A program made the translations under genes and the position numbers. DNA of 64,000 nt from Romanomermis culicivorax (lineage: Eukaryota; Nematoda; Enoplea; Mermithida; Mermithidae). The notes under the pieces were generated by a model. That model worked only from the letters and a program-made list of their open reading frames with translations, was not told the DNA's origin and made no database searches. How positions within the stretch are numbered: position 1 is the first letter of the stretch; every line of letters starts with the position of its first letter. Location: NCBI GenBank assembly GCA_963922205.1, contig CAWUHX010000213.1, positions 558,001 through 622,000 of the forward strand, read 5' to 3'. Positions 2,471 through 64,000 of the stretch are shown piece by piece.

Positions 2471-2571
2471 TTTGAGGTGAAATTCTTGGATGCTAGCAAG
2501 ACAAACCACTGCAAAAACATTAGTCAAGAATGTTTTCATTAATCCCATGGACGAAAGTTAGAGGTTTGAAG
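2471..2571 (+). pseudogene. 18S rRNA fragment
   Basis: About 100 bp closely follows the universally conserved SSU rRNA segment: GAGGTGAAATTCTTGGAT, then CAAGAATGTTTTCATTAAT, then ACGAAAGTTAGAGGTT. Several substitutions and the lack of flanking rRNA show it is a captured fragment. It runs directly into an R-I element at 2576. Confidence 0.85.
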
Positions 2572-2575
2572 CTGA

Positions 2576-3020
2576 CTTTCTAGAAATAAAAATTATATGG
2601 AATTTTTGGAGTGAAAATAACTTTGGAAAGTAGGGTGTAGCCAGGAATTGAACTGGTAACCCAATTTGAAAAATAGGATGTAGCCAGGATTCAAACTGGT
2701 AAACAAGGTTTGACTCCTGGCTACACCCTATTTTTCAAATTTGTTCTTACTCCAAAAATTCCATATAATTTATATTTCAAAAAAGTGAGCAACTTTATTT
2801 GTCGGCAGTTTGAAGCAGCAGGAATGCTGCTACTTGCCAAAGGTTGTGGGTTCATGACCACCAAGCATTTGAGTTGCATGCTAAAAATGGGAGCCAAGGG
2901 AAGCACCTTAATCTGGGTTCACATTGTAGTGTGGTGATCTAGTGTTGAGGATGTCAGCCGGTAATGCTGGTAACCCAGGTTCGGTTATCTAGTTCCTGGA
3001 TACACCCTATTCTTCAAAGC
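2576..3020. repeat. R-I element, copy 1 (tRNA-like inverted ends)
   Basis: Member of a dispersed family with copies near 19650, 21175 and 41155. It has the ends AATTATATGGAATTTTTGGA and GGGTGTAGCCAGGA in both orientations. The plus-oriented half (about 2915-2990) contains A-box-like (TGATCTAGTG) and B-box-like (GGTTCG) sequences, which suggests a tRNA-Glu/Asp-like ancestor. This copy is rearranged, with extra tandem GTAGCCAGG pieces. Confidence 0.65.
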
Positions 3021-3061
3021 TCGAAGCTGATCAGGTTGTAGAATTCAAAGTAGATTGCATC

Positions 3062-3110
3062 TAACACACATATCCTATGATATATTTTTAACACAATGAT
3101 TGCACTACAT
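3062..3110 (+). mobile_element. LTR-C copy a, left part (split by LTR-B)
   Basis: Weak similarity to the 5' part of LTR-C (ACACATATC, then TTGCACTACAT). It is placed here because the sequence resuming after the LTR-B insertion at 4526 continues LTR-C. The left border is uncertain. Confidence 0.4.
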
Positions 3111-4525
3111 TGTCACATGCCGATCAATTTTGCCCAACGTCACATGATTCACATCATGCAGGTACTTTATGTTTTTCCCCACTTTTTGTTTTACAGTTAC
3201 ATACTCTTATTTTTGTGTTTCATTCATTATATTTTACATGCATTCTTGTGTGCATTTTTGTGTTTCATTTCTGTTTCATATTTGCGTTTTCATTTTCATT
3301 ACGTTTTGTTATTTTTCCATTGCGCATGTAGACTACAGTATGTAACCCATTTGTTAGAATTTCCGCCAAGATAAGCTCTACAAGGGCATGGCCATAATTG
3401 GAGCATTACATGCACCTCTTGTCAGTAAAAACTAGCGATGTTTTGCAATGCAAAATGACTAGTTTGGAAATTCTCAATAAAAAACGTTCATATGTTTTAG
3501 CATGGAGAGTGAAACTGGCCCCAATGCTGAACGTATTCGAACTGGAAAATGTCTATGTGACCATAGGCATCTTCTGCAGCGATTTCCACTGCAGAAGTTA
3601 GCTTGGGCATTGTTAGCTCCGCCCAAGGCATACTGTAGGTCTGCGAGGCCCTTTAAAAGGGCCTGTTTCATTAGTTTTGTACTCATTTTTGGGCCTACAT
3701 TGTTTTCTTCTGCACAAAGCGTCTTGCATCCATTGACTATATTTTATATTAATTTCCATACATTGCGTCGGCCGCCTATGTTTTCGAATAAATTTGTATA
3801 AGACCTCGTGTCCATTGCTGTGTTACTGTACCCCTGCATAGGAGTTACCGGTCGCCCTCCCACCTAGTACCTGCCTGTCACTCCATTAGTGGACCGCTTG
3901 CATTGCCCACCGACCCATTTTGCAGTACACCCTGCACTGAAGCCAAACCATACTGTTGTCACCCCTGTTTCCTGTTGTCCAAGGATCCGTGAACCTGTGA
4001 ACACGTCGCCCCACGCCGAGTTTTAGTTGAGAGAAGGACCAGGTAAGTCTTGTCAGGGAATTATTGTTGTTGAGGGTATATTTGTGGGAACCCTTTCCTA
4101 AGCTGGTTTTCCCTTGAGAATCCCCTCAGTTTGAGTAGCCCTTGTACCCATTGGACTAGGGCCAAAAGGGGATTTGGGTTTACAATCGGGTCCCCTACAG
4201 TAGGCCATTCCACAGATGGCCTTGTCCTTCATTCTCACTGAATGGGACTAGGGATTGCCACCCCTGACCGGGCAGCGTTGTCCATTACCCTACAGCAGAA
4301 CCCAAAGACAGCGCCATAGTACCCTATAGACCCTCCTATAGCCAGTACTAGCTGGGCCAGGTTCCCCAAATGAATACCAAAGGAGCCACCTGAGGGGCTC
4401 ACACCATGTCAATCACAGTGACATGGCCGCATTTTTATCAATATGGTATGGGTTTTTACCATCAATGTGATTGGTCACCAAATCTACTTAATGTGACATG
4501 GCTCCAGTTTTCCTTCAATGGGACA
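3111..4525 (+). mobile_element. Solo LTR, family B, copy 1
   Basis: A 1415-bp unit starting TGTCAC and ending GGGACA, with the 4-bp target duplication acat at 3107-3110 and 4526-4529. Two relatives (13248-14568 and 49144-50349) have different perfect 4-bp duplications, which fixes the ends. An AATAAA sits near 3788. There is no internal gag-pol, so this is a solo LTR left by recombination. Open frames inside it are not conserved between copies. Confidence 0.85.
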
Positions 4526-4821
4526 ACATGATGTGCAGGTACATTTACCACTAATGTTCTAGAACCTTCCACAACATTCTGTAATATTCTGTTCATGTAC
4601 AATCCACAACGTTCTAGAGTATTCTATCATTTTCCATGATGGTATACAAGCTGTGTTATATTGCATAGTCATTCATTTATTTATTGTACTATTCAATACA
4701 TTACTATTGTATGTTGTGTTAGTTAGCCTTATTAAACTCTGCTATTGCCAAGCTAGTATTCACAAATTATCCTTAGCCTGATCTATTTTCAACTCTGTAC
4801 AGTCTTAATTCAAGACAAAAT
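4526..4821 (+). mobile_element. LTR-C copy a, right part
   Basis: Matches LTR-C copies b and c from GATGTGCAGGTAC onward: the heat-shock-like TTC/GAA array, the TGTACTATT and TTAGCCTTATTAAAC blocks, and the terminal ATTCAAGACA. The LTR-B at 3111-4525 sits inside it with an acat duplication, so LTR-B inserted into an older LTR-C. Confidence 0.65.
4557..4569 (+). promoter_or_regulatory. Heat-shock element in LTR-C copy a
   Basis: TTCtaGAAccTTC is a perfect three-box inverted array of the type bound by HSF. Further TTC boxes follow within 60 bp. Function is inferred from the motif only. Confidence 0.5.
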
Positions 4822-4904
4822 ATATGTGGAATATTGTCTTGTATTGTGAATAGAATGTAAGTACAACACCCCACAAACTGTACAATTTAGGGAAAATAAA
4901 CTAC

Positions 4905-5060
4905 TGTAGTGAATATATTCATTTAATATACAGCTAAATATGCAAATATATTTTTCATCATTGCAATGAACGTATTAATTTAATATACAGCAATATATGC
5001 AAATCTAATGTTTGGGCATTTTAGCGAACATAATTTTATATACAGCAAAAATGCAAATAT
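4905..5060 (+). repeat. Short tandem array
   Basis: Three diverged units of about 60-70 bp, each with TTTAATATACAGC followed by ATGCAAAT. Confidence 0.6.
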
Positions 5061-5751
5061 GACGTTCCCATAATTTTTTTGAACAACTAGTGAAATAACC
5101 GTTTTGCTTATAGCAGCACTTTTGGATGGAATGCCTAACTAGAAAAAGAAGTATGCAAAAAAATTTTCAATCTTAATTCACATGGCAAAGTTCAGCAGAA
5201 AAGGAAAACATGGTGTGAAAAATTCAGAATTCTTTATGATTTTTTGACCAGAATTTACTAGTTGATACTTGAGGAAATATACAATGATACTGGATGGTGC
5301 TGGCATGCTCCCAGATTAAGTATTTGAAGACTAATAGCCAGATCAGGTTGGGCATGCACTTGGAGCCATAACCAAACTGGCAAATGTTTGGGCAATCGTG
5401 CATTAAGGAGTTGATAATCATCATGCAAATTATGGCATTGTTAAAAAAATATCAAAGTCACAACTGTTCTCCTCCCAGCAAGCAGCACAGTGGCTCTAAC
5501 GTGTATTAGTATACAGCAGAATACCTATGCTAAAAAATTGCTTTACTCATCTACCAACTCGCAAATGCCCTTTGCTTCCACTAGCAGCTCTATGTCAAAA
5601 ATTTGTGGTATATTCTTTGAAATTTTCCAAAACTGTTGTCCAAAGTTGTCAAAAAATTTAAAGTATAATAAATATTGCTTAGAATATTAGGTTGCTACAG
5701 TAAACTTAAACTTTAAACCCATGTTTGAATTTTCAAATAGCATAATGCATC
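5061..5751. other. Intergenic; R-H end fragment at 5600-5740
   Basis: 5600-5740 resembles the end of R-H copy 2 near 17760-17920 (GTTGTCAAAAA, then TTAGAATATTAGGTT, then CCCATGTTTGAATTT). No supported gene; the two short open frames here have no splice or similarity support. Confidence 0.5.
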
Positions 5752-6169
5752 TGATACATATCTTACAGTATGATCACTTAATATAATGTGCAAGTATGAT
5801 GTGATGCATACCTCACAGTATGATCACATGACATAACGTGCAGGTACGGTTTATGTATTGTGTTGTACCAGAAAGTTCTAGAACCTTCCACGATATTCTA
5901 TAATATTCTTTTATATTCTACAAGATTCTAGAACATTCCGTGATCTTCTGTGATACTATATAAGGTGTGTTGTTTTGTACATTGAGTCATTTTATTTATT
6001 GTACTATTTAGTACTTGGATATTATTTAGTGCTTAGATATATTTGTCTCGTGTTAGTTAGCCTTATTAAACTTAACTTTTTACCAGCTATTATTCCAGTT
6101 GGATATTTACCAATTATCCTAAGGCTAATCTATTTGCAACTTAGTCCAGTCATTATTCAAGACACAACA
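5752..6169 (+). mobile_element. Solo LTR, family C, copy b
   Basis: A 418-bp unit from TGATACATATC to GACACAACA, with near-matching 5-bp flanks gcatc (5747-5751) and gtatc (6170-6174). It contains about 46-bp subrepeats around GATCAC, a heat-shock-element array, a TATA box, and then an R/U5-like part with TTAGCCTTATTAAAC. It aligns over its length with the copy at 11989-12427, whose 5-bp duplication is perfect. Confidence 0.8.
5871..5965 (+). promoter_or_regulatory. HSE array and TATA box of LTR-C copy b
   Basis: 5871-5888 reads GAAagTTCtaGAAccTTC, a perfect four-box HSF site. 5926-5938 reads TTCtaGAAcaTTC, a second three-box site. Several isolated ATTC boxes lie between them. CTATATAAGG follows at 5956-5965. 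This is the layout of a heat-inducible core promoter. Activity is inference. Confidence 0.65.
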
Positions 6170-6174
6170 GTATC

Positions 6175-6600
6175 AAAGCAGACTTTTAGACCCTAAACAT
6201 TAAGTGGTGTAAAGCTCATGATTTTAGTACACATGGCTGTGAAACACACATAGATTTGTAATGTAAACAAATGTTTGTGAGTGCATGTTGTTTCCTCCAG
6301 CATAAGTAGTCATGGCTGTCACATGAAGCCTCTGTATGTATTAAAGTGATGAGTAAGAACTTTTTGAGCATTCTGTTCGGTGAAAAAAGATTTCTGATGG
6401 AAAAAGGACATGTGCAGTTTACACTCAATTATGTTACACTCTGTTGTTTACAATCAGCAAATGTTTTATTGAATTTTCCGGGTCTTGTCTTTCTTAATGT
6501 ATGCTCTAACATACGGGGCTATACTCTGCTGTTACAACAATTTTTTTTTTCATTTAAAGGTCATACAATCTAGGTAAATCTATGAGCCCTATGCTAACCC
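6175..6600. other. Intergenic, nothing assigned
   Basis: AT-rich sequence. Short open frames on both strands lack splice or similarity support. Confidence 0.4.
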
Positions 6601-7215
6601 GAATAATAGTTTGTTGTCCATAGCGAACAAACGGCAGTCCCTATTTTTCAAATGGGATTTTAATGGAAAGATTTGTGGGATTGAATTTTACAGTTTACTG
6701 TAGTAGGATGGAAAACTGTATTTTTTGAATGGTATTTTTGTGGAAAGATTTTTGCATCACCATTTCATAAATTTGCTGTAGGAGGTAATTAATTTGCCAC
6801 TAAACTGTAGTTTATATTTTTTTAATGCTTTTTTCCTGGAATAATTTGTGAGTCAAAATTTTGCAGTCTACTGTAAGATAGAGTTACAGATTGATCAAAC
6901 TGTAGTTTGTATTCTTCAAATGTGATTTTTTCAAAAAGAATTGTGGAACAGATTTCCACAGTTTACTGTAGGATTGAATTTCTTTCTGACTTAACTGCTG
7001 TCAGTATTTTTCAATTGCTATTTTCCAACAAAGATTTGAAGGGCCCGATTTTATCCATTACTGTAGGATGGAATCAATTAGCAGCTGAGATTTCATGGTA
7101 TTATTTTCCAAATTCTATTTTGTTGTAAAAATATTTCTGACAATATTTTACTCTTCACTCTTAAATGGATTTATTCACCAAACTGCAGTAAAAGTCTAGA
7201 GTTTACTGGTATTAG
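6600..7215 (+). repeat. Degenerate tandem array, about 95-bp unit
   Basis: Roughly six units, each with a TTTACTGTAG core, an ATGGAA or TTGAATTT stretch and a TTTTTGGAAAGATT stretch. The CTACAGTA word is frequent across the window. Confidence 0.6.
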
Positions 7216-7489
7216 GACGTCTGGTGGCCACCCATCTCATAACGTGTGTAATGCAAAAAGTACCTACAATAATAGGGTAAAATGTGCGATGAGGCGTAAA
7301 TGGTATAATGTGCCTGCTGAATGATAGCCTAAGCTGGAAGTCGGAATTTGGAAGTGCAGTCAGCCAATGTCAGCGACAAAAATCCTGGGATTTTTTCACT
7401 TCTGAATTGAGTTTTCTGTAAATTGCCTATTGATTCCATAGAGTCGCTGATGCTCACTGATCACTTTTAAATAGGGCTTGAGCCTAAAG

Positions 7490-7714: not shown

Positions 7715-8065
7715 GACCCTTGAGCCTAAGCCTAAGACTAAGCCTGAGCCTGTGCCTGAGCAAAAGCTCCAGCCTAAGCCTAAGCCTAAGCCTAAGCCTA
7801 AGCCTGAGCCTGAGCCTGAGCCTGAGCCTGTGCCTGAGCCTGAGCCTGAGCCTAAGCCAAAGCCTAAGCCTAAGCCTAAGCCTAAGCCTAAGCGTAAGCC
7901 TGAGCCTGAGCCTGAGTCTGAGCCTGAGCCTGAGCCTGAGCCTAAGCCAAAGCGAAAGCCTAAGCCAAAGCAAAAGCCTAAGCCTAAGCCTAAGCCTAAG
8001 CATCAGCCTGGGCCCCAGCCTAAGCCTGAGGCTAAGACTAATCCCGAGCCTAAGCCTCAGCCATG
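7715..8065 (-). repeat. Interstitial telomere-type array, degenerate
   Basis: About 57 hexamers of CCTAAG/CCTGAG on the plus strand, so TTAGGC/CTCAGGC on the minus strand. TTAGGC is the standard nematode telomere repeat. It is more diverged than the arrays at 15890 and 18594. The Lys-Pro-Glu-Pro frames read through it are not genes. Confidence 0.9.
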
Positions 8066-12432: not shown

Positions 12433-12779
12433 TCTTTTATGATCTCCTGAAAATTTCTTTTGATGCTATTCAGTTTTTCATTAGTAATGTATATATATAA
12501 AGCTTATCATGCTGCTCAGCCTTTCACTATGAATATATAGACGTAAAATAGTACACCTTTTTTCCTTTAGTGGACCGCTCACATGCTCTCAAGTCGCCAT
12601 TACATTCTTCTTCTAAACTCAGATCTCCAAGTTGTTAAGCTTAATGAAGTCATTAGATTAGATGATTTAATTTGATATGTTGCTTCATCAGAGCCAAATC
12701 CCATAGCAATCAGTGAAAGATTAGGATACCAGAATGAATTTCATAACCTAGCTTATTACTGAAATGAGCATCAGGGCCA
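12433..12779. other. Intergenic, nothing assigned
   Basis: No gene, array or known repeat recognised. Confidence 0.35.
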
Positions 12780-13215
12780 AAAACCTTTGTGTTGCTTGCA
12801 TTAGGGTTTGATCCCTGAACTTGGAGATTGTGTGTCGATAGCCGTAATCACTGGGCCATCAAGGCCAATATTTGTATGGTTAAATTATGTATTTAACCCA
12901 GTGAGCCATTAGGTCCCTTAATGATTTTTGTCAAAAAGATTCTATTCAATTCCTCATGAAAGCAAGGACCCCAAGAGAAAAATTAGGGAGACAGTGGAAA
13001 TGGGACTAGCACGTTGTAGCAATCTAAGAACAAAAAGCATTGAAATAGGCCACATATGGAATAGAACCTTCTTGAGTAAGTTCTTTAGGGGGCTCAATGG
13101 CCCACCAGCTTGAATGGATGATCTAACCTGGCACACAATGGCCCCAATAGCCCAGTGGTTACAGCCCTCGACTCACAGTTTCAAATTTCAGGGATCAAAC
13201 CCCAGTGCAAGCAAG
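12780..13215. repeat. R-L fold-back element with tRNA-like arms
   Basis: A minus-oriented tRNA-like arm (about 12785-12870) and a plus-oriented one (about 13145-13215) flank a 250-bp centre. Each arm has an A-box-like AGCCCAGTGGTTA or GGCCCAGTGATTA and a B-box-like GGGATCAAACCC. The centre (TTCTATTC..CACATATGG) recurs near 34590-34650. The right arm ends about 30 bp before LTR-B copy 2. Confidence 0.6.
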
Positions 13216-13247
13216 GATTCATTGAAAATTATTCTAATCATCAAAGC

Positions 13248-14568
13248 TATCACCTGCTGATCAATTTTGCCCAGTGTCACGTGATTTACATCATGATGTT
13301 TTTCGCCACTTTTTGTTTAACATTTACTTACTCCTATTTTTCGTTTCGTTCATTATATTTTTACATGCATTCTTGTGTGCATTTTTGTGTTTTATTTCTG
13401 TTTCATTTTTGTGTTTTCATTTCCATTACATTTTGTTATTTTTCTGTTGCACACGTAGACTAAGGTATGTAACCTGTTAGTTAGAATTTCCACCAAGATA
13501 AGCTCTACAAGTGCATGGCCATAATTGGAGCATTATGTGCACCTCTTATCAGTAAAAACTAGGGAGGTTTTGCAATGCAAAACAACTAGTTTGGAAGTTC
13601 TCATTACAAGACGTTCATATGTTTAGCATGGAGAGTGAAATTTGTCCCAATGCTTAACATGTTGGAACTGGGAAATATCTATGTGACCATAGGCATGTTC
13701 TGCCGCAAGTTCAGCTGCAGAAGTTAGCTTGGGTGTTGTTTTTAGCTCTTGCATCTTGCATCGGTCAACTTTCTTATATTGATTTACATACATTGCATCC
13801 ACCGCATATATTTTTGAATAAATTTGCATACAACTTTGTGTTCATCACTGTGTTCACCACCTGCATTCCTGCATAGGAGTTATGCATTGCCCATCTCACC
13901 TAGTACCTGCCTGCTGCTCCTTTAGTGAATCACTTGCGTCGCCGGCCGACCCATTTTACAGTACACCCCATTCCGAACCTGAACCCGATCACCCTCACCC
14001 TGTTCCCATCATCCCAGGATCAGTGAACCCATGAACTTGTCGCCCCCTGCCAAGTCGTAGTTGAGAAATGGACTAGGTAAGTCTCCTCAGGGGATTATTG
14101 TTGTTGAGGGTGTATTTGTGGGAACCCTTTCCTAAGCCCGTTTTCCCTTGAGACTCCCCTTGGTTAGAGTAGCCCTCATACCTCTGGGGTTAGGGCCAAA
14201 AAGGGGATTTAGGTTTACAATTGGGTACCCTACAGTAGGCCATTCCACAAATTGCCTTGTCCTTCATTCTCACTGAATGGGACTAGGGATTGCCACCCCT
14301 GACCTCACGGCATTGTCCATTATTCTACAGCAGAACCCAAGGACAGTGCTGAGGTACCCTATAGGACCTCCTATAGGCAGTACCAGCTGGTTTAGGTACC
14401 CGAACTGAATACCAACCCACCAACACTAGCCACCCAATGGGGTCACAGCATGTCACTCACAGTGACATGGCTCCATTTTTATAAATATGGCATGGGTTTT
14501 TCCCATCAATGGGATTGGCCACGAATTTGTTTAATGTGACATGGCTCCCAAATTCAGTTAATGTGACA
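13248..14568 (+). mobile_element. Solo LTR, family B, copy 2
   Basis: 1321 bp, starting TATCAC and ending GTGACA, with the 4-bp duplication aagc at 13244-13247 and 14569-14572. It is collinear with 3111-4525. Confidence 0.85.
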
Positions 14569-14756
14569 AAGCCTTAAGAAGGTAGAAGGTACACTACCGG
14601 AACATCGCTCACCATTGTGTTATTGTATGTTATATTGTGTTATAATAACAAAGGTGTTTCACATTTTTATGCGATTGTAAGGCCAATAATAGCCAATGAT
14701 GAATTCTTATTATAACCAATCGCAAACAAGATTTTGAAAAAATGAATACTTTTTAT
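14569..14756 (+). repeat. R-D unit, single copy
   Basis: Starts with AAGAAGGTAG..ACTACCGGAAC, followed by GTGTTATTGTATGTTATA and AAGGCCAATAATAGC. The same unit occurs as inverted pairs at 34020-34810 and 46560-47330. The start resembles a hammerhead ribozyme core. Confidence 0.6.
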
Positions 14757-15053
14757 TTAACTGTAGACTCCAATATTGCACCTAATTTGGAAAATTTGTG
14801 CACTTTGTTGTTGAAAAGGTGAAAATTCAATAAAAAAATATATGATGGGAGTCTGAGCAGGTGGAGCTAGCGGCCGAGTATACATTAGTAAAACATGCCA
14901 GAGAATGAAAAAGATCATGTAAACTACAGTATCTAGCTTTGAATGGTCCACTACTCTTTTGTCAATGCACACCTGCAGGCAACTTTGAACAGTTGCCAAA
15001 TTATTTTGAAATCCACCTGAATTGATGGCATCTAATCTGTAGACTTTTTGCAT
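14757..15053 (-). other. Possible exon region
   Basis: A 98-codon minus-strand frame. It contains a TCTACAG acceptor near 15045 and a Cys-bearing segment (ATVQSCLQVCIDKR) that could be the next exon of the gene at 15246-15540. The phase does not match directly, so the link is unproven. Confidence 0.3.
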
Positions 15054-15559: not shown

Positions 15560-16420
15560 TTCAATCAAACATTATCCAACATTTTCTGTAATGCTATAAT
15601 TTTCTACTGTCAATAACGTGGAATATATGCTTTGCAGCTTCAGGCAGCAAAATAATTCGATGGATCAAATCTAAAATACACTTGAAATTGTGCAAAGTGT
15701 CTTAAATAAGAAAAAAAATGTAAAATGGTAAAAGACTAAGGGTGATACGATTGTTCACCTATGTCTATGGACATGACCCGACAATTGAGTACCGGACAAT
15801 TGAGTGCCGGCAATTGAGCGCCGACAACTGAGCGCTGAGACAACTGAGCACCGACAACTGATGCCAACAACTGAGCGCTGACTATTTAATGGCTTAGGCT
15901 TAGGCTTAGGCTTAGGCTTAGGCTTAGGCTTAGGCTTAGGCTTAGGCTTAGGCTTAGGCTTAATGCATTCAATAGTCAGCCCTCAGTTGTCGGGGCTCAA
16001 ATGTCTGGGGCTCAGTTGTCGGCGTTCAATTGTCCGGCGCTCAGTTGTCGGTTAACCATCTATGGAAAATGAAAAATTGGGAATTATCATCGTTTTGTAA
16101 GAAAGCGCCCATATTGTTTGAACTAGAATTATATTTCACAGTTTTCTATGCTGGTCAAATAAATAATTTTGTTTATAGCCGGTACAGGATTCGAGTGCAA
16201 ATATGGAAAGTGAAGCCGTAAACAAATTTTTGCTTATGGATATACAAAAGTGGGAATTCTGCATTATTTTGTATTTTTTCTCAGACTGCAGACAACGCAA
16301 AAGCGTAAAGGTTGGAAACAAATTTATGGTCTGAAAACGCTGTGTTTGAACAACCTAAAGAAGAATTACATTGGAGAGAAATTTGTCTCGAATATTAGTT
16401 TTTGATAGTGATATGATTAA
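15560..16420 (+). repeat. R-G fold-back element, copy 1
   Basis: Shares its unique left flank (15560-15770) with 18255-18480. Then come about six copies of a 13-15-bp unit (GACAACTGAGCGCC type), a (TTAGGC)n core at 15890-15962, the same units inverted (CTCAGTTGTCGG type, 15977-16050), and a right flank (CCATCTATGGAAAATGAAAAATTG) also shared. Copy 2 is at 18255-19650. Confidence 0.85.
15890..15962 (+). repeat. Perfect (TTAGGC)n core of R-G copy 1
   Basis: About 12 uninterrupted TTAGGC hexamers on the plus strand, flanked on both sides by inverted 14-bp-unit arrays. Confidence 0.95.
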
Positions 16421-18593: not shown

Positions 18594-18700
18594 TGGCTTA
18601 GGCTTAGGCTTAGGCTTAGGCTTAGGCTTAGGCTTAGGCTTAGGCTTAAGCTTAGGCTTAGGCTTAGGCTTAGGCTTAGGCTTAGGCTTAGGCTTAGGCT
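18594..18700 (+). repeat. (TTAGGC)n core of R-G copy 2
   Basis: About 17 hexamers with a single TTAAGC variant. Confidence 0.95.
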
Positions 18701-18889
18701 TAACGAAAACACACAATTATAATGCATTAAATAGTCAGCCCTCAGTTGTCGGGGCTCAAATGTCTGGGGCTCAGTTGTCACGGGGCTCAGTTGTCGGCGT
18801 TTAATTGTCCGGCGCTTGTCACGTAATGGGTAAACGGGTTGCCATCGCATTGCCATCCTAACCATCGCCAAACACTGTTCGAAAAATAA

Positions 18890-18960
18890 TGCTCGACTGG
18901 GATTGGAACCCGGGTCTCTGTGACTATAGTGCAGCGTTCTTCCGATTGAACTACCGAGCC
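18890..18960 (-). tRNA. tRNA-like sequence, copy 1 (probable pseudogene)
   Basis: Read in antisense it folds as a cloverleaf. The acceptor GGCTCGG pairs with TCGAGCA except at the outer position. D-stem GTTC/GAAC is perfect. The anticodon stem CTGCA/CACAG has two mismatches. The loop CTATAGT would give anticodon AUA. The T-arm CCGGG/CCCAG has one mismatch. A-box (TAGTTCAATCGG) and B-box (GGTTCCAATCC) are good. The anticodon-stem mismatches and the second identical copy suggest a tRNA-derived repeat and not a working gene. Confidence 0.5.
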
Positions 18961-19081
18961 AGTGTTGGGATTGTTACGAAGGGGTGATGTACGGCCGTGC
19001 GACGCATGACACGCTTAGTTGTCGGTTAACCGTCTATGGAAAATGAAAAATTGAGAATCACCAAACACTGTTCGAAAAATA

Positions 19082-19152
19082 ATGCTCGACTGGGATTGGA
19101 ACCCGGGTCTCTGTGACTATAGTGCAGCGTTCTTCCGATTGAACTACCGAGC
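19082..19152 (-). tRNA. tRNA-like sequence, copy 2 (probable pseudogene)
   Basis: Identical in sequence to 18890-18960, within the second unit of the 192-bp tandem duplication. Confidence 0.5.
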
Positions 19153-19650
19153 CAGTGTTGGGATTGTTACAAAGGGGTGATGTACGGCCGTGCGACACAT
19201 GACACGCTCAGTTGTCGGTTAACCATCTATGGAAAATGAAAAATTGAGAATTTTCACTGTTTTATAAGAAAGTGACTATTGTTTGAACTAGAAGTATATT
19301 TCACAGTTTTGTATGCTGATCAAATATATCATTTTGTTTGTATTATAGCCGCATATGGATTGAAGAGCTAATATGGAAAGTGAAGTCATAAACTAATTTT
19401 CACATATAGATATATTGAAATATGGGAATTCTACAATATTTTCGAAGTATTCGCAGCTGGCAGACAACATAAACGCCTAAAGATTGGAAATAAATTAATG
19501 GTCTAAATACTCTGTTTGAACAACAAAAGTTGAATTGTACACCTAAAGAAGAATTATGTTTGAGAGAACATCGTCTCGAATATGGATTAGTTTTTGATGC
19601 TGATATGACCAAGAAAAAAGACAATGTGTGTGAAATAATCGAAATGAAAA

Positions 19651-20762: not shown

Positions 20763-20965
20763 GGCTTGAGCTTAGACTCATGCTCAGGTTTAGGCTTTTG
20801 TTTATGCTTAGGCTTAGGCTTAGGCTTAGGTTTAGGCTTATGTTTATGCTTAGGCTTAGGCTTAGGCTTAGGCTTAGGCTTAGGCTTAGGCTTAGGCTTA
20901 GGCTTAGGGTTAGGCTTAGGCTTAGGCTTAGGCTTAGGCTTAGGCCTGGGCTTGGGCTTGGACTC
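20763..20965 (+). repeat. Interstitial telomere-type array
   Basis: About 33 hexamers, mostly TTAGGC on the plus strand. Degenerate edges (CTTGAGC, TTTATGC, GGGCTTGG) surround a clean centre. It has no flanking inverted 14-bp units, unlike the R-G cores. Confidence 0.9.
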
Positions 20966-23799: not shown

Positions 23800-26494
23800 A
23801 CAGGCTAATGCGCTCCACTGAGATAATCAGAAAAATCAATCTTAGAGATTTTCGTTTTGAATGTGTGTAAATTGGAAGAACTAAGAACTTCAGCTGAAAG
23901 TTCATTCCATATATTAATGTACCTATTGGAAAAATCCAATAATCTAATATTTGTTTTAGCTTTACCTGTTTTGAGTTTGTAGTTTGTAGACTCAAAATTA
24001 CTGCTAATAAAGAAGTCCGATTTTTTGCAGACAGGATTGGCCTTTAATAATTTGAAACATCATGCATAAGGCGGCACGTAGTCGGCGTATTTCTAAGCTA
24101 TCAAGGCATAGCTTAGTTAAATGCTCATCATATGAAAGGATAGACCCAAAACCACATATTCTCTTTGTGAATCTTCTCTGAACTTTTTCAATGAGATTTA
24201 TGTCAGAGGCATAGTAAGGGTTCCAAACAGTTGAACAATATTCTAGCAGGGGTCTAACATAAACAGTGAACAGGCGTAAAGGTTAGAAGTATCATGGGAA
24301 GTAAAGGTTCTAGTTATCAAAGAACTTAAGCTAAAGGCTTTCTTGGTAATTGATGCTATGTGATCTCTAAGACTCAAGTTTTCGGATATAAGTACGCTCA
24401 GACAATCCAAAATTGTAGGGGACTTTTGGATTTGCATGGCCCATATAGAGAATAGAACTTTTTTCAGCCGAAATTTCGAGTTGCCATGTTTTAGACCAAT
24501 TGAAAATCTGATCAAGATCATCTTGAAGAGTTTTACATTGTGTGGAGGTGTTAAAAATTTTCACATCATCTGCGAAAAGATAGACATGGGATTTTAATGT
24601 ATCAGGGAGGTCGTTTATAAACAAGAGGAAAAGAGTTGGACCAGGAACACTCCCTTTACGGACACCACTGCTCACGTCTGATTTTAGGGAAAATTTGTTG
24701 TTAATGCAGACTTTTTGAGTGTGATTTGAAAGGAAGGCGATGATCCAATTCGCAAGAAAACCACAGATGCCATAGTTTTTCAACTTTAGAGCAAGCTTAC
24801 TATGGGAGACAGAGTCAAAAGCTTTCTTAATTAAAATCAATGTAAATCAAATCAATGGAAGATCCTGAATCAATAAGTTTGGTCCATGAATTTTTGCATT
24901 TGAGCAACTGTGTTTCACATGACTTTTTTGGCAAAAACCCAAACTGAAAGGGAGATAATAGAGAGCTTCTCTTAAGGTAATCTAAAATAGAAGAGTTAAT
25001 AATGCTTTCCATGACTTTACAAGCAATACAACAAAGAGAAATTGGTCGGTAATTGGAAATCGATGAGGAATCACCTTTTTTTTTTGTATACTGGGATTAC
25101 ATTTGCAGTTTTCTATATAGATGGTAATGCGCCAGATCTAAAAGAAACCTCAAAGATATGAGAAAGTGGGTCCGCCAAACAATTGGATAGTTTTTTCATA
25201 AAATAGGCACATAACCCATTAGGACCCAAGGCAAGGGACGGATTCAGCTCAACAGAAAATGATGAATTGGAGATTTCAGACATAGTTCTTTTGGGGAAAA
25301 GAGGCACAGAATCATTATCATTGATAAAGACTGATGTGAAATAATTATTGAAAAGTTCGGCCTTTTGATCTTCATCGGAAATAATTGCATTACCTATACA
25401 AATTGGGGGAATAGCTCTATTTGATTTGATTTTGGAATTTACAAAATTATAGAAACTTCTGAGATCTGATTTGTCAATAAGTTTCTTTTTAATGTCGATT
25501 TGATGTGATTTGATTTGATTTTTCAAAAATTTACAATGACTGTTGAAAAGAAACTTGTCACCGGCTGATTTAGTTTTCCTATAGTTTTTCCAAAGTTTTA
25601 ATTTTTTAGGGAGTAGCTTCTGGAGGTATTTGGGATATTTTTTTGCCTTACTTATTTTAGACGTGGGTACGTGTTGTGTTATAATGGGCTTCAAAATGTC
25701 AATAAAACTACAGTACATGTCATCTGCATTTCTACATGTAGAGAAAAAAACATGTAGAGAAATGTAGAGCTCAGAAATAGTATCATAGTTTGCCTTGCGA
25801 AAGTTCAAACGGAGGGATTTTGGATTCAGGGGCCTTGTCTTGAGAATTATTTTGAACTTTACACTCGAATGGTCACTAGTAGAAAAAGGAGGACGACATG
25901 AACGTCAGAGACACATCTATCACCAAAAATTAGATCAAGGATATTCTTATCATGGGTGGGTTGCAAAACCAGTTGCTGCAGACTTGTACTAGAAAGACAC
26001 TCAAATAAAGATGTGTAGGTGACTTCATAGGGATACGTAGAATTGATCCAGTCGAGTTTGGGTAAATTGAAATCTCCAGTTATGAGGATAGGATAATTAA
26101 CATATGAGGACTATTCTATAAAAGAACAGAGCTTGTTGCAGTAATCTAGGTTATACTCAGGTGGCCTGTAAACAAGAACAAGGCGATAAAGGAGACCAGG
26201 GAGGGCAAGATCAAGGATTAGTGTTTCAGGAGTATCAATAGAAGCTGGGACTTTAGAGATGACAGCAGGTATTGATTTTTTGATAAAAATTGCAACCCTT
26301 CCACCCCTTTTGTTGGGTCTATCCTTGCGGAAGATATTATATGACCTTAAATTACATAAAATACCATCAGAAATACCATCATTTAACCATGTGTCAGTAC
26401 AAAAGATTAGGTCATATTGCTGTGTTTCAAGCATCATGTTGAGTTCTTCCAATTTAGACACTAAACTTCTAGCATTAAATAAAATACACTGCAA
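23800..26494 (-). pseudogene. LINE ORF2: endonuclease and reverse transcriptase, frameshifted
   Basis: AP-type endonuclease segment at 26494-26111 (FNARSL, DTWLN, GGRVAIF). Linker at 25808-25113. Reverse transcriptase at about 25110-24250 with NYRPISL, FGFLPKKSCETQLL, DLIYIDFN/KAFDSVSH, GVRKGSVPGP and the FADD catalytic box near 24576-24565. A thumb and C-terminal part follow (VRPLLEYCSTVWNP near 24250; NRYINIWNELS near 23900). At least four frameshifts divide it, so it is inactive. Confidence 0.88.
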
Positions 26495-26516
26495 AAAATT
26501 ACTATCAATGGGTCAT

Positions 26517-27509
26517 TTACCTAAAATAAATTAGTGCTGTTATTACACAATAATGACTTACACAATTATGACGAAAATCAATATATAAAACCATTTCGCC
26601 TGCTTGTTTATGATTGTTTAATTCAGCAACTAATTTGCATTGACATTGGCACTGTAAAAAGGATAAGTCAGGACGTGAATGAAGAAAAATAAAAGGTTTT
26701 AAAGTAGGATCATTACGTGTTTGTGGTTTAACAACTTTATTGATTAATTTTATAAAAGAACGTTGCATTTTAGATGAAGAGCAACATATTTTGAGAAATC
26801 GAGGATGGTTAGAGATTTTGGAACCATCCTGAAACACTTTAACTATGTCATTTTCTGTAAATTGATTTTCATTATCATTTTCAATCAACAGGGTTCCGAA
26901 ATCGGTTACAATTGGTTGGACTTTTTCAAGGTCATCTTGATTGTCCTCAGCTAATCTTTTTTTTTCTTTTTTTTTTGATTCACGCTCAATAGCATCCTGA
27001 ACTAGCATTTCTACATTTAGGTTCTCCAAATTATGAGTAATCGTAGGATGATGTATTTTTGAGGGTTGATTTAGCCCATTTTTTGATTCGATAATTGAAA
27101 CCCGGTGTTGTAAATCAACAATTTGTTGAGTCATGTTTCTGAAACTAGGAGCACATTTTTGACAAATAAATGGGAGAATTGCGCCAGATTGAGATTTTGG
27201 TTGACTGCTAAAAAAATAAATTATTGTTTTTGGTAGGTTTAAACATTTGGAATGGGCCCATAAGTTTCACATATCACATTGTATAGCAGTAACATGATCC
27301 TCAGTAACTAATTGATGGCAAATAATGCAAGGGTAGTCATCCCAAGGTAAATTATTCAGAGATGTCAAATTTATCGAGAGAGACAGAGTAATTACATTTG
27401 ATGATAGCCTATTGTTGTTGTCATTTACTTTGGTTTTCACAGTGTTTATTTGAGCTTTTGAATTTCGTTTCGAAGTAACAGACTGATGAAATCCGGTAAT
27501 CACATCCAA
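26517..27509 (-). pseudogene. LINE ORF1 with PHD-like zinc finger
   Basis: One frame runs from 27509 to 26517 with a single internal stop near 27267. Its N-terminal third carries CIICHQLV, then AIQCDM, then WAHSKC and FICQKC, which is a C4HC3 (PHD-like) arrangement. The stop replaces the fourth zinc ligand of that series. A heptad-like stretch follows (MTQQIVDLQHRVSIIESKNG, a probable coiled coil), then a basic KKKEKKR segment. PHD-like fingers are known in ORF1 of some CR1-group LINEs. The ORF ends just upstream of ORF2. Confidence 0.75.
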
Positions 27510-37504: not shown

Positions 37505-37604
37505 AAGTTCAATTTGAGATATTATTTCAAGATTTATCATATCACGTGAATATGAAGTCAACAGCACTTGGAGGATTTGATGACCACATAATGTCAGCCA
37601 GATG

Positions 37605-38050
37605 TTGTATGGCAACATACAACATTCCACCCATAGGATTGATGTTGTAGCCAATGCACGGGTCCTGAACCCGGCCATTTTTGTTGAGCTCTGGTCAGGA
37701 TGATTACGCCTACCCTGACATTGGCCAATGGTGGGGCAAATACGGCACCACCCAGTAAGCCTTTCAACACTGGTGACCATACCAGGTGGCCCCCAGTGTC
37801 TCCAAGGGGGGAGGGATGTTGTATGGTAACATACAACATTCCACCCATAGGATTGATGTTGTAGCCAATGCACGGGTCCTGAACCCGGCCATTTTTGTTG
37901 AGCTCTGGTCAGGATGATTATGCCTACCCTGACATTGGCCAATGGTGGGGCAAATACGGCACCACCCAGTAAGCCCTTCAACACTGGTGACCATACCAGG
38001 TGGCCCCCCAGTGTCTCCAAGGGGGGAGGGATGTTGTAGGGAGGGATGTT
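37605..38050 (+). repeat. About 205-bp satellite, left block
   Basis: Two and a bit units, each starting GATGTTGTATGGCAACATAC and containing CCTGAACCCGGCCATTTTTG and ACATTGGCCAATGGTGGGG. The block resumes at 38514-38860 after an LTR-A fragment. Very diverged units occur at 42060-42400 and 42628-42700. Confidence 0.85.
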
Positions 38051-57540: not shown

Positions 57541-58940
57541 AGAAAATTAGATGATTCTAATCGGAATCACAGAACTGTTGATAGCAGATAAATTCATGAG
57601 AAATTTATCGTTAACTTGCTTTATCTGCTCCTACAGAACACCAATATGTTCTTGATGAGCTCATTTTGACTAACATAACCAGAATTTTCTCCATTTTTTC
57701 CTCATTTTTGCAGGTTTCTGACTACCTACAACAAAATGCCTGGGTATGCTCCTAAAATGCATAAAAAAGCATCCGTAGCTAAATTATAAGCATTTTTAAA
57801 AATGTGGAAAATTTTTGGAAAATGAGGAAAAAAATTTTGGGTCTGGTTCTCATGTGGAAAAAAATCTTCGAGGAAAAAAACGGTGTGTATATACATAAAA
57901 AAACAAAAAAAACCAAGAATTTTCGAAAGTCTCACTACAGTAAACGCAGTATAACATCATAACTGCTACTAGAGGAGCAGAATAAACATGCGCATCAGTC
58001 ATTGATGCAACTTAAAAAATTCGAATTGGTCCAATTCAGAAAAATGATGATTTTTTGTATCTAAAGTAACTTCAAACTTGTTAATGACAACTCAAAATTT
58101 TCAACTCGAATCTACTTAAAAATCAGTAATTATTCAACTAATTCAATTATTTTGAGTTACCCCAACACACTTGTCGTACTTGAATGGACCCATGAACTTT
58201 TTTTACAGTGCATGATACTGTTAATGAAACGTGTAACGTTACTCTTTTGAACAACATTATAGCATTGTAATGTATAACATTACCGGTATAACATTTTATG
58301 TTATACAGGAAATCATAAGATCTATATTGACCTTATGATAACGTACGAGGATCCTATGCTATACAGGTAATCATAAGATCTATGTTGATCTTATGACCAT
58401 CTTATCATATACCACGTACCGTATTATGTCTTACCACAAAAAATATCCTGAAATTTACTGATAACAAGCAGAGAATTAAAAAATGTGCTACAGCCTTTTC
58501 CATAATGATGTCTTTCATTAATTGGATACTTGTTTTTTGTGTGTAGAAAACTACCTGAAGCAGTAGTGCATAAGATCTATATAGACGTCACTTTTTCATA
58601 CAATAATTTTTTTCTATCATTAACAGTTTTAGCAGTATTTATCAACCTTTACAAAGCCCATCCTGTAAAATAATGCACACAAAATTTTTATCAAGAAAAA
58701 AATTATCGGTCCATATAAACCATATGTGCTACCATCGTCCACATAAGATCGGTGTATCCTTATATAAGCTAATATAAGCTTATATAAGCTTATGTTATAC
58801 CTAATGCACTACGAGACCTTATACACTACCCTATACTTGCTTATAAGTACTCGAAATCCTGGGACTGGTCTAGCATTACTACTAAAGACCTATGGTAAAT
58901 GATTAGCCAATATATAAGATTTTCATGCACAGTCAACTTT
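57541..58940. other. Intergenic downstream of TM2D2
   Basis: 58260-58860 has repeated CATAAGATCTAT and CTTATATAAGC words, some palindromic. No gene. Confidence 0.45.
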
Positions 58941-59020: not shown

Positions 59021-62000
59021 TCAATAATTCGGCATCCAATTCGACCCATCTTCGGGCGTAGTATGACCGCTGATCAATAGAATAATGTCCACGATCCACC
59101 AAACGCCCAAGCCGCCCAATGTGATCAATTTTCCCGTCGCTATGCCTGATTGACCCAAACAAAATCGATCTACGCCGAAAATGCCCAAAAATATGGAGTA
59201 AAGTAGCGTGGTCAAAAAATAGTGACCGGTGTACCTGGGGTAGAAAGATCACTTTACACTAAAGTGTGTAAATTAAATCAAATTTTTGTTACTTTACATG
59301 TGCATAATTGTGGATAAATTCTAGTAGCTTTACACTAAATTGTGTGAATCAAATTTTTGCTACTTTACATCAAATATTTAAAACCTTACGCTCGCATAAT
59401 CGAGAAAAAATCTGTCAGTTTACACTACACTAGAAAAAAATGAAGTGCTTCTTACTTTAAATACGGATAACAGGGTTGAGAAATCTGAATCACTTTACAC
59501 TAAATTTGTACATCAAATTTTTCATACTCTACAAACGGAAAACCGTGCAAAAAAATCCAAGTCAGTTTACACTACACTATGTAAGTCAAATTTGTCTTAG
59601 TTTTCACATATATACTTGTTGAAAGAAATCCGGGTCACTTTACACTGTAGTGTGTGAATCAAGGTTTCCATACCTTGCACATGAATAACTGTGAAGCCCG
59701 AGTCATTTTACACTATACTATGTCAATTGAATATTTCCTTACTACTTTACACATGAATAACTGCGAAAAAATCACAGTGACTTTACACATATAAACATGG
59801 AAAAGAAATCATTGTCACTTTACACTACATTGTACAAATAACTTTTTTCACTTTACACACATCATATATATGAAAACGAATCCTGATCACTTTACACTCG
59901 AGTGTTTGAGTCGAGGCTTTTCCACTTTGCATATGAAAAACAGTGGAATCCAAGTCATTTGTACACTACACTCTGTGCACTGAATTTTTCTTACTTTTAA
60001 ACAATTGGTCACCATGAAAAAAAGCATGTCATTTTACACAACATCATGGAAATCAAATATTTCTTACCTTACACTCGAATAATCGTTGAAAAAGCCACTT
60101 TACACTAAACTATGTGAATCGAAAATAAAATGTTACTTACTTTACACATGAATAACCGTAAAAAGAAATCTGAGTACTTTAACACTAAACTGCGCGAATC
60201 ACACTTTTCCTCTTTTACGAATATGAAGACTTTCTAGTCAATTCTAAATTCATCTGTGTAAATTAGATTTTTCACTCTGACACTCGGATATCAGTGCAGA
60301 AACTCCAACTCATTTTACACTATACAATGTGCGTAAATTGATTCTTCCTTCACAAGGAGATCCTTGAAAAAAGCGAGTCACTCTACACTACATGGTGTAT
60401 ATTAATTATTAACGACTTACATTCAGATGATCGTGAAAAAATCAGTTACTTGTGTAAATCATATTTTTCATACTTGAAAAATTGATAACTGTAAAAAATC
60501 CGATTCACTTTAAACTAAATCGTTTAAATCAAGTATTTCTCGCTTTACACAATGTTAACAGAGAAAAAGTCTAAGCCACTTTACACTACATTAACCAAGT
60601 TTTGCTTGCTTCACAAATGAATAACCGACGGAAAATTCAAGTCACTTTACACTACACAAGTTATTGTATATGAAATTTTTATTGCTTCACACACAGGTAG
60701 CCATGAAAAGAATTCAGAGTCATTTTAAACTAAACTGCGATTCACTTTACACTAGACTTTAAAAATCACATTACCTTTACTTCAAAACGGGGAACTGAGG
60801 AAAAAAATTTAACTTGCTTTACACTACACCGCATGAATCGAAAATTTTCAATTTACACATGGATAACTGTGGAGAAAATTAGAGTAACTTTACATTATAC
60901 TGCATCAATAAAATTGTCACCACTGCACACACAGATAACGGCGAAAAGAAATCCGAAGTACTTTACACTGTAATATGTAAATCAATTTTTCTCACTTCAC
61001 ACATCTATAACTTAAAGTTCCGCTTTACACCACATCCTGTACAGCAAATACATCACTTTACACTGCATCGTGTACACTGAATATACCACTTTACACTACA
61101 TAGTTTACATCAAATATTCCATGTTGTACTAAATAGTTTACTGCATTGAATATTTCTTACTTTACATTCATATAATCGTGAAAGAACCTGAGTCACTTTA
61201 CACCACATTTTTACTTTACACACAGATAACCGTGGAAAAATACGAATCACTCTACACTACACACTGTGTAATACGATGTTTACAGATGTATATACCTTCG
61301 AAAGTCCGAGTCACTTCACACAACACTGTGTAAATCAAATTTTTGTTACTTTTCACATAGACGACCGTGACAAGTAGCCGTGATCACTTTACACTAGTAT
61401 GTGTAAATTCACATTTTTCTTTCTTCGCAAGCAAGTACGCGTAAGACGAATCTCACTTTAAACTACACTGTGTAAATCAAAATTTTTGTACTTTACCCAC
61501 TTCACTGTGTAAAACGAAGTGCATTACACTGTGTGAAAACTTTACACTACACTGTGTAAAAACTTTACACTACACTGTGTAAAACTTTACACTACACTGT
61601 GTAAAAACTTTACACTACACTGTGTAAATCAAAATTTTTGTATTTTACTCACTTCACTGTGTAAAACGAAGTTTTCTGAGTTTACACATGTATATGCCTA
61701 GAAATTCCGAGACACTTTACAATACACTGTGTAAAAACTTTACACTACACTGTGTAAAAACTTTACACTACACTGTGTAAATCAAAATTTTTGTACTTTA
61801 CTCACTTCACTGTGTAAAACGAAGTTTTCTGAGTTTACACATGTATATGCCTAGAAAATTCCGAGACACTTTACAATACACTGTGTAAAAACTTTACACT
61901 ACACTGTGTAAAAACTTTACACTACACTGTGTAAATCAAATTTTTGTACTTTACTCACTTCACTGTGTAAAACGAAGTTTTCTGAGTTTACACATGTATA

Positions 62001-62793
62001 TGCCTAGAAACTCCGAGTCACTTTACAATACACTGTATAAATCGAGTTTTTCTAACTTTACACGCAGATAACCGTGGAAAAATACGATGCGCTTTACACT
62101 ACACTGTCGATCAAAATTTCTTACCTTACAAGCGGAAAACAGGAAAAATCATTTAATATTGTAATACTTACACATGGATAACAGTGAAAAATAAGGTTCA
62201 CTTTACACTACATGGCGGGATTCAAATTTTCCTTACTTTACACATGGATAAGCCTGAAAAAAGTCAAATCACTTTACACTGTGAATCGGAATTTATTACT
62301 TTTTATGCGCAGGAAAGCGTGAAAAGAAACCTGAATCACATTACACTACACTGCGAAAAAAGAAGTTTTCTCAGTTTACGTTGAAAAAATACGACTTACT
62401 TTACACTACAGTGTGTAAATCAAAATTTATTTACTTTACGCATGGATAATGGTGAAAAATCTAGTTCACTTTACACTACACCGCATGATTCAAATTTTTC
62501 TTACTTTACACACGGATAACCGTGCCTCAAAAACGTCCTAGGCCCTTGGCATTCGATGCAATCTAGCGCTTTACACTTCAAAGCCGTTTTCTCCACTAGT
62601 TCCCATCGAGAACCGCCAAACTTTAAATTTACACCACGAAAATCTTCGCCATTTACACAACATGATCAAAATCTTTTTTTACCTTTACACAACCGTAACC
62701 CAATTCTTCTTTAGCGCTCTTGTTGCCTTGTAAATCCAAGGGCGGTTCGCATTCGATAAATTCCTCCGGTCTAGGAAAATTGCGCACTTTACA
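59021..62793 (-). CDS. TM2D2: TM2 domain-containing protein 2, last 3 exons
   Basis: Exons 62793-62683, 62620-62505 and 59234-59021 join in phase 0 (AAG/GTAAAA to AAATTTAAAG) and phase 2 (AA/GTAAGA to CTACCCCAG/G). They give about 146 residues to the stop. The order of features is diagnostic: Cys-rich ectodomain ([34 protein letters not shown]), then [20 protein letters not shown], the DRF motif between the two membrane helices (VDRFCLG), [20 protein letters not shown], and the terminal DGSNW. TM2D proteins are conserved animal membrane proteins; in Drosophila all three influence Notch signalling. The signal-peptide exon was not found and should lie at higher coordinates, perhaps outside the window. 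The 3270-bp second intron is a tandem array related to the preceding exon end. Confidence 0.95.
59240..62500 (-). repeat. TM2D2 intron satellite, about 69-bp unit
   Basis: About 45-50 diverged units fill the intron. In gene sense each unit reads roughly GGTTATCCATGTGTAAAGTA, then AGAAAAATTTGATT, then TACACAGTGTAGTGTAAAGT, then GACTCGGATTTTTTC. It holds two GTGTAAAG words, and TTTACAC..GTGTAAA can pair. Units at 61545-62030 are homogenised into a 22-bp subrepeat and a roughly 190-bp higher-order repeat. Confidence 0.9.
62621..62682 (-). repeat. 62-bp TM2D2 intron resembling one satellite unit
   Basis: The short intron starts GTAAAAAAAGATTTTGATC, contains TTGTGTAAATGG, GATTTTCGTGG and TGTAAATTTAAAG: the order of words in the satellite unit. 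Confidence 0.6.
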
Positions 62794-62799
62794 CTAAAA

Positions 62800-63349: not shown

Positions 63350-64000
63350 GGCAAGGATCAATAACCTCAGAAAATTAGTTTACATTACCTAGACAATCAT
63401 AAACATACATGTAACCTCAGGAGATAAGTTTACACTACTCAGATCATAAAAAACATCGTTAACCATGGAAAATTAGTTTACATCAGCTATATAATTACAA
63501 ATATAAATAACCTCAGAATATTAGTTTACACTACCTAGACTAACAACACACTATTAACCTATGGAAGTCAGTTAACACTACTCAAACCATAGAAAACATC
63601 ATTAACCTCAGAAAGTTAGTTTACACTACCTAGATAATCAGTCAAAAACATCGATAATCTTAGTTTACACTACCTAAATCGTCCAAAACATCATCAGCTT
63701 AGAAAATTAGTCGACACTACGTAAATCACTAAATGTATCACTAAGCTCAGAAAATTAGTTAACACTACTTGCATAATCAGTTTACACTACACAGAACATA
63801 AAAAATATCAACGCTAGGAAATTACTTTACACTACGCTTATCTATCTCAGAAAAAAGTTCACACTACCTAGAAATCCAGAACATCAACAACCTTAATTCA
63901 CACAAGCTGGGCCATCAGAAAGAAAATTAGTTTACGCTGTTTAGATAATCTGGAACATAAAGAACGTTAGTTTACACTAAAAAAATCATGAAATATATCA
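63350..64000 (-). repeat. Second TTTACAC array, about 50-60-bp unit
   Basis: About 11-13 units in plus sense of CTCAGAAAATTAGTTTACAC, then TACCTAGATAATCA, then AAACATCATTAAC. It shares TTTACACTAC with the 69-bp satellite but has a different body. It runs off the window. Confidence 0.8.

Follow-up and report, generated by a model that had tools for sequence, protein, structure and literature searches.

How does an intron come to be filled with a satellite whose repeat unit reads like the very exon-intron junction at which that intron begins? The question is raised by a TM2D2-like gene on the minus strand of Romanomermis culicivorax contig C213, in a stretch of 64,000 nucleotides (C213:558001-622000, hereafter the window) taken from an assembly of 359 Mb in 595 contigs.

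Results

The TM2D2 gene and its two copies

The predicted TM2D2 protein is 52-72% identical to the best 120 of 773 homologs, and the crustacean Lepeophtheirus is among the nearest named matches. On the minus strand, exon 2 (62683-62770; PEEFIEC...GYGCVK, located by tblastn) is followed by a 62-nt intron 2 (62621-62682), whose donor flank, GGTTACGGTTGTGTAAAG and then GTAAAA, is similar to the satellite unit described below, and by exon 3 (62505-62620, minus strand, 116 nt), which by translation and homology ends in ...HGYPCV plus AA, in phase 2. Exon 4 (59021-59234, minus strand, tblastn) carries the stop codon and the TM2 domain (PF05154 match). Between exons 3 and 4 lies intron 3 (59235-62504, minus strand, GT...AG), with a donor GTAAG that starts at 62504 and an acceptor CCCCAG that ends at 59235; its removal joins ..PCVK to YTGHYF.. 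as in the homologs, and both the exon end at 62505 and the intron length of 3270 nt stand as they were originally predicted. We did not find exon 1 upstream, using tblastn and motif searches of 62.7-90.4 kb (extended coordinates, which run on past the end of the window) and of the second gene copy.

That second copy of the gene, a paralog or a haplotype (copy B, the one in the window being copy A), lies at C195:11.6-15.2 kb. Its collinearity with the window begins at 58870 and extends to the start of contig C195, the three longest alignments having 84-91% identity. Intron 3 is carried by both copies. A segment upstream of exon 2 (62970-62800, CATGCATATTTGGATGCTCGG...) is nearly identical in A and B, and no coding exon was recognised in it.

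A diverged satellite fills intron 3

A profile of the repeat was seeded with one interior stretch (60230-60090) and trained on two segments, 62380-59260 in the window copy and 12660-14920 in copy B, the junction unit and the repeat near it in copy B being kept out; the 73 training matches gave a 90-column consensus containing CACGGTTATCCGTGTGTAAAGTAAGAAAAATTTGA. The profile matches delimit a satellite at 59246-62527 (minus strand) that covers 3016 of the 3270 nt of intron 3 (92%), and its units lie head to tail at regular spacing, with 40 positions, the true junction counted, aligning to the last exon base. An intron filled by a satellite had been predicted and is what we found; the repeating unit also stood, although not at exactly the 69 bp proposed for it, as the median spacing is 71 nt. 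Tandem Repeats Finder picks up only pieces of the array because the units are too diverged, among them a higher-order 153-bp repeat (61455-62041, minus strand, 3.8 copies, 91% matches) at which the alignment of copies A and B breaks. Over most of their length the A and B arrays are collinear, which argues that most of the array is older than the A/B split.

The interior consensus is the exon 3 junction

With the junction excluded from training, the interior consensus, CACGGTTATCCGTGTGTAAA followed across the splice boundary by GTAAGAAAAATTTGA, equals the true junction at 62524-62490 in 35 of 35 nt, 20 of them coding, and the profile scores this junction at 28.1 bits (E 2.6e-9). The coding part, CACGGTTATCCGTGTGTAAA at 62505-62524 (minus strand), agrees with the interior consensus at 20/20 positions and would represent the coding part of the founding unit; the profile match extends to 62527, the exonic side of the alignment petering out at AGGCAC. 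The intronic part at 62490-62504 (minus strand), consisting of the true donor GTAAG plus AAAAATTTGA, agrees at 15/15. It had been proposed that the first satellite unit is the exon end joined to the intron start, and that consensus units keep the coding-side bases as well as GTAAG; the interior consensus bears out both proposals. Among the individual units (33 interior units that span the junction part, of 48 profile matches), the mean match is 0.74 for the coding side against the exon and 0.69 for the intronic side against the intron. That the coding side matches the exon about as well as the intronic side matches the intron indicates that the coding bases belonged to the amplified unit. The identity of units to the junction follows no decay gradient with distance (Spearman 0.17, P 0.35), and so the exon end is not pointed to as the growth point.

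Could a match of this kind arise by chance, from a donor consensus in AT-rich sequence at a locus where the TGTAAA motif is common? GTGTAAA/TTTACAC occurs 14-33 times per kb in the introns of TM2D2 and in the upstream array, 5.6 times in the 3′ flank and 7.4 times in the exons, against 0.30 per kb in 104 kb from 16 other loci and none in the NUDT2 intron, exon 2 or 5′ side; the enrichment over background is 46-109-fold in the TM2D2 introns and about 19-109-fold in TM2D2 non-coding DNA (58500-66780). The profile was weighed on exon sequence only, in a set of 37 exon pieces drawn from TM2D2 and NUDT2 and from a further ten loci, with 1-2 bases trimmed off exons 2 and 4 of TM2D2. Its best match was to the final 23 bases of TM2D2 exon 3, with the donor register kept, at 10.0 bits, followed by a runner-up piece at 3.3 bits; the maximum over 100 dinucleotide-shuffled sets was 8.6, so that the margin over shuffles on the coding bases alone, 1.4 bits, is modest. 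With the protein fixed, the probability that all 20 coding bases would match through synonymous codon choice is 0.0027. The small margin, the density of the motif and the similar GGTTACGGTTGTGTAAAG at the end of exon 2 are what chance has in its favor; against them stand the match of 35/35 in register, 20 of it coding, the synonymous null and the first place among 37 exon pieces, and we give chance almost no credence.

The flank of the intron 2 junction resembles unit 1 (score 38; null 17.9, sd 3.0; reached by 0/1000 shuffles). Its intronic part alone is weak, being reached by 33/1000 shuffles, and on this ground TM2D2 intron 2 was rejected as a complete unit; with the profile the flank scores only 1.8 bits.

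The exon end has exchanged with the array

Across the junction, over 62542-62463, copies A and B show no difference. In copy B, 260 bp starting 17 nt before the end of exon 3 are tandemly repeated, with agreement at 248/259 nt and at 15/17 exon bases. When copy B is compared with itself at an offset of 260, two exon blocks upstream agree at 3/10 and 5/10; agreement is then 8/10 at TATCCGTGTG and 7-10/10, mostly 9 or 10, in the blocks that follow, through the donor and for 240 bases beyond it. The junction block of A matches the first copy in B at 0.972 and the next block of A matches the third in B at 0.912, from which it follows that A is one 260-bp copy short. We dropped the idea that the extra repeat in B is younger than the A/B split, since its two 260-bp copies differ by 4.2%, more than the 2.8% between the A and B junction blocks; it may instead be older than the split and have been lost in A. 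Whatever the age of this repeat, the exon end has exchanged with the array as a unit. A tandem duplication that crosses the splice boundary is indicated both by the interior consensus that equals the junction and by the 260-bp repeat of copy B.

Direction of copying and distribution in the genome

The coding part of the unit encodes HGYPCVK. In the best 120 of 773 homologs the G is kept in 102, the P in 119, the C in 120, V or I in 118 and K or R in 116, and three homologs (P0001 and two more) read LRDGYPCI[KR]. Because this peptide is conserved in homologs, the coding bases were probably exonic first and the satellite copied from them, making exon to intron the most likely direction of copying.

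A genome-wide pattern scan (359 Mb) with GTTATCCNTGTGTAAAGTAAGAAAAATTTGA, allowing up to three mismatches, returned five sites, three in copy B and two in the window copy, and no near-consensus unit outside the two TM2D2 copies (reversed control, 0); a scan of this kind detects near-consensus copies only, and since most interior units differ by more, diverged relatives could escape it. The presence of the same satellite at many loci unrelated to TM2D2 would have counted against the original prediction; at the near-consensus level all five sites belong to TM2D2. Nor did the scan return near-identical copies at many unrelated genes, as would be expected of introners.

The reverse order of events, in which a satellite arrived in the intron first and its end then replaced the exon end through conversion or a shift of the donor, would equally yield a consensus that equals the exon end, and the exon end of copy B does sit within a longer repeat. 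Such a satellite, however, would need to have carried by chance the peptide that the best 120 of 773 homologs conserve, and it has left near-consensus copies (up to three mismatches) nowhere else; we consider this order very unlikely. A dispersed, introner-like family with splice sites, tandemly multiplied at this locus, is a further alternative, and would account both for TTTAGTGTAAAGTG, which introns 1 and 3 have in common shortly before the acceptor (62785-62798 and 59250-59263; 0/1000 shuffles reach the score), and for the likeness of the intron 2 and intron 3 donor flanks. That likeness is partly coding, though, with the intronic part alone weak, while other genes are without near-consensus copies at up to three mismatches and the TGTAAA motif occurs at 0.30 per kb at the 16 other loci, so that a family of this kind appears highly improbable. 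The reading we prefer remains that the satellite was copied from the exon 3 junction.

We also compared the introns of TM2D2 and its neighbor with 18 other loci, which were selected by Pfam proteasome or mitochondrial-carrier exons for having exons far apart. In a self-match test that scores TM2D2 intron 3 and the NUDT2 intron as 100% covered each, 0/31 inter-exon gaps of at least 300 nt at these loci are arrays, the gaps being ones that may contain unseen exons. Within this sample the array trait is therefore local to TM2D2, NUDT2 and their duplicate. The TM2D1/TM2D3-like loci had just one small array, of 181 bp.

Donor sites and splicing

The units were expected to leave dozens of decoy donors in the intron. 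Many are indeed present, but the figure is a little generous, as GT is kept in 21/33 units and GTAAG in 6/33. The true donor (AAA, then GTAAGA) scores 1.85, and 18/362 intronic GTs score equally or better, on a generic matrix. Reading past exon 3 gives K and then UAA (AAG UAA), a stop that is formed by the donor itself, and any inner donor is for this reason predicted to end the protein immediately. The reading frame thus requires the outermost donor to make TM2D2, as had been predicted, and strongly suggests that this donor is the one chosen. Exon definition of exon 3, which is 116 nt long and follows the 62-nt intron 2, could commit the outermost donor once it has been transcribed.

It is conceivable that the array is functional and not merely tolerated, with unit copies serving as micro-exons or as recursive donor-acceptor steps. 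An AG stands directly before the coding-like bases in 6/33 units, giving an arrangement of AG, 15 nt and donor, and the first 42 intron nt are the same in A and B, while the long alignments differ by at least 9%. The GT, however, is missing in 12/33 units and that AG in 27/33 (AG counted by eye), and a functional array of this kind seems unlikely.

The intron of the neighboring NUDT2 gene

A NUDT2-like gene, whose closest matches are in Meloidogyne nematodes, adjoins TM2D2 upstream on the minus strand (extended coordinates 69721-66882; L008 5721-2882). Its 2381-nt intron (69493-67113 extended, minus strand; L008 5493-3113) is also an array, one that went unremarked in the original prediction. 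In copy B the NUDT2 intron is about 4.7 kb (C195 about 2535-7241, L005), with the same exons.

A profile trained on 69350-67150 gives an alignment of 41 bits that spans the junction of NUDT2 exon 1 with the intron. Once copy B is included, 36 NUDT2 units yield the consensus TTTGATAAATGTTTACGAGAAAATTTGGATTTTAAA followed at the splice boundary by GTGACTC, with which the end of exon 1, TTACGTGAAAATTTAGATTTTAAA, agrees at 22/24 positions; the start of exon 2, GTTGATAAACGTTT, agrees with the unit consensus at 12/14 (counted from the output; E 0.04 in the gene scan). On exon sequence only, NUDT2 scores below the best shuffle (3.5 versus 6.1 bits, and 4.0 versus 8.4 with the copy B profile), the 4.0 bits being the top of the 37 pieces, and local alignments of the NUDT2 exon ends to the intron are at or near the shuffled maximum. 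The case is carried by the register, the 41 bits over the junction and the 22/24 consensus identity, and from these there is a fair case, weaker than that for TM2D2, that the NUDT2 units derive from the gene's own exon 1 end. More tentatively, the unit may also include the start of exon 2. If both parts hold, the NUDT2 unit is what would be expected had the whole intron been duplicated in tandem along with its flanks.

Other features of the region

A third, different array with units of about 48 bp (TAGTGTAAACTAATTTTC, minus strand) occupies 63360-64000 and continues to about 66780 in L008. In this array (63.4-66.8 kb) GTGTAAA/TTTACAC lies on the coding strand in 58 cases and on the other in 0. 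A relationship to the intron 3 array was considered and found to be weak, as 17/500 shuffles reach the consensus similarity and only 11 bases are common.

Interstitial tracts of TTAGGC, which we take to be the nematode-type telomere repeat, are present at 7723-8062, 15891-15962, 18595-18702 and 20770-20959 of the window and at 416-3553 of L010. Counted as 12-mers, there are 39 + 13 in the window and, toward the contig end, 3 in L009 and 62 in L010; none were detected in the 30 kb of copy B or in the other loci scanned. A subtelomeric cause for the arrays is only a guess, because the 30 kb of copy B are without TTAGGC. Elsewhere in the window, inspection of the ORF list by eye points to a LINE-type element with reverse-transcriptase-like frames at 24007-27266 (minus strand), and there are tandem duplications at 18864-19251 (193-bp unit, 97%), which by eye resembles tRNA-derived sequence, and at 37601-38038 (214-bp unit, 98% between copies).

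Discussion

TM2D2 intron 3 very probably grew from its own 5′ splice junction by tandem duplication. Growth by duplication of a piece across the 5′ splice site had been proposed at the outset and is the best explanation we have, given an interior consensus that equals the junction and an exonic peptide that is conserved. An ancestral short intron, of perhaps 55-60 nt like the 62-nt intron 2, would have been tandemly duplicated together with the last ~20 coding bases of exon 3, and unequal exchange among the copies would have produced ~40 units of ~71 bp, reaching the native polypyrimidine tract. The intronic copies would drift, while the exon copy would be held by selection on the peptide G-Y-P-C-V-K, and it is this selection that would explain why the exon end still equals the consensus of the units. 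The exon end may accordingly be pictured as a living master copy at the edge of the array, still able to join in exchange.

Splice junctions in this region may seed satellites more generally. On this broader proposal TM2D2 (donor side) and NUDT2 (whole intron flanked by ~24 nt from exon 1 and 14 nt from exon 2, initially an in-frame micro-exon) would independently have grown short introns to kilobases; the exon end held by the protein would be a permanent master unit that still exchanges, selection on the protein would partly fix the sequence of the satellite, and some local property of the duplicated stretch would drive the process. A local property is invoked because 0/31 long gaps at the 18 other loci are arrays. 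We put this broader proposal forward tentatively, as very nearly an even call.

Several known systems bear a likeness to the TM2D2 array. The human 6-16 minisatellite, reportedly described with Turri as first author, is said to lie at an exon-intron boundary, to have a unit of ~12 bp and to be partly used in alternative splicing. As in 6-16, the tandem units of TM2D2 carry donors, the real donor and the extra ones being copies of each other; unlike 6-16, the TM2D2 unit is 71 bp and forms ~40 decayed copies over 3.3 kb, whose inner donors are predicted to stop the protein at once. With ordinary intronic satellites and minisatellites the TM2D2 array shares a degenerate tandem structure, higher-order repeats and a copy-number difference between gene copies, but its unit, unlike theirs, contains the true donor as well as protein-coding bases from the adjoining exon. 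That the 6-16 minisatellite is a source of splice donors is conveyed by a title cited in PMC2572611, listing Cuin and Porter.

For intron gain, PMC4974935 describes a duplication in potato that spans an intron-exon boundary; among the examples it cites are fission-yeast genes in which 24-bp exonic repeats lie within an intron, and Arabidopsis TOUCH3, in which a whole intron and its exon flanks are duplicated. As at TM2D2, the duplications in that text cross or create splice signals, but there introns are created or multiplied in few copies, in contrast to one intron with ~40 copies. Introners, repeated intron sequences able to carry splice sites, have copepods among their carriers according to PMC9860276. 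Introners spread to new sites across many genes, whereas the TM2D2 repeat stands in tandem in one intron, and the scan at up to three mismatches found no near-consensus copies elsewhere. A donor-supplying minisatellite (6-16) and tandem duplications over splice boundaries in intron gain are already known. In a literature search that most subscription papers fell outside, we found no report of a kilobase intron whose own junction supplied the tens of decayed copies that make it up, nor of two neighboring genes with such introns, and the scale of the TM2D2 array and the neighbor case look new.

The TM2D2 array would offer a direct route by which an intron is lengthened from its splice junction, the source of which is still readable as selection on the protein preserves it. 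It would also be a natural test of how the spliceosome chooses the outermost among many similar donors, where the other choices are predicted to end the protein at once, and in this regard the arrays of copies A and B differ in content yet must yield the same mRNA. If the NUDT2 case is true, growth seeded by a splice junction would be repeatable and not the freak of one intron.
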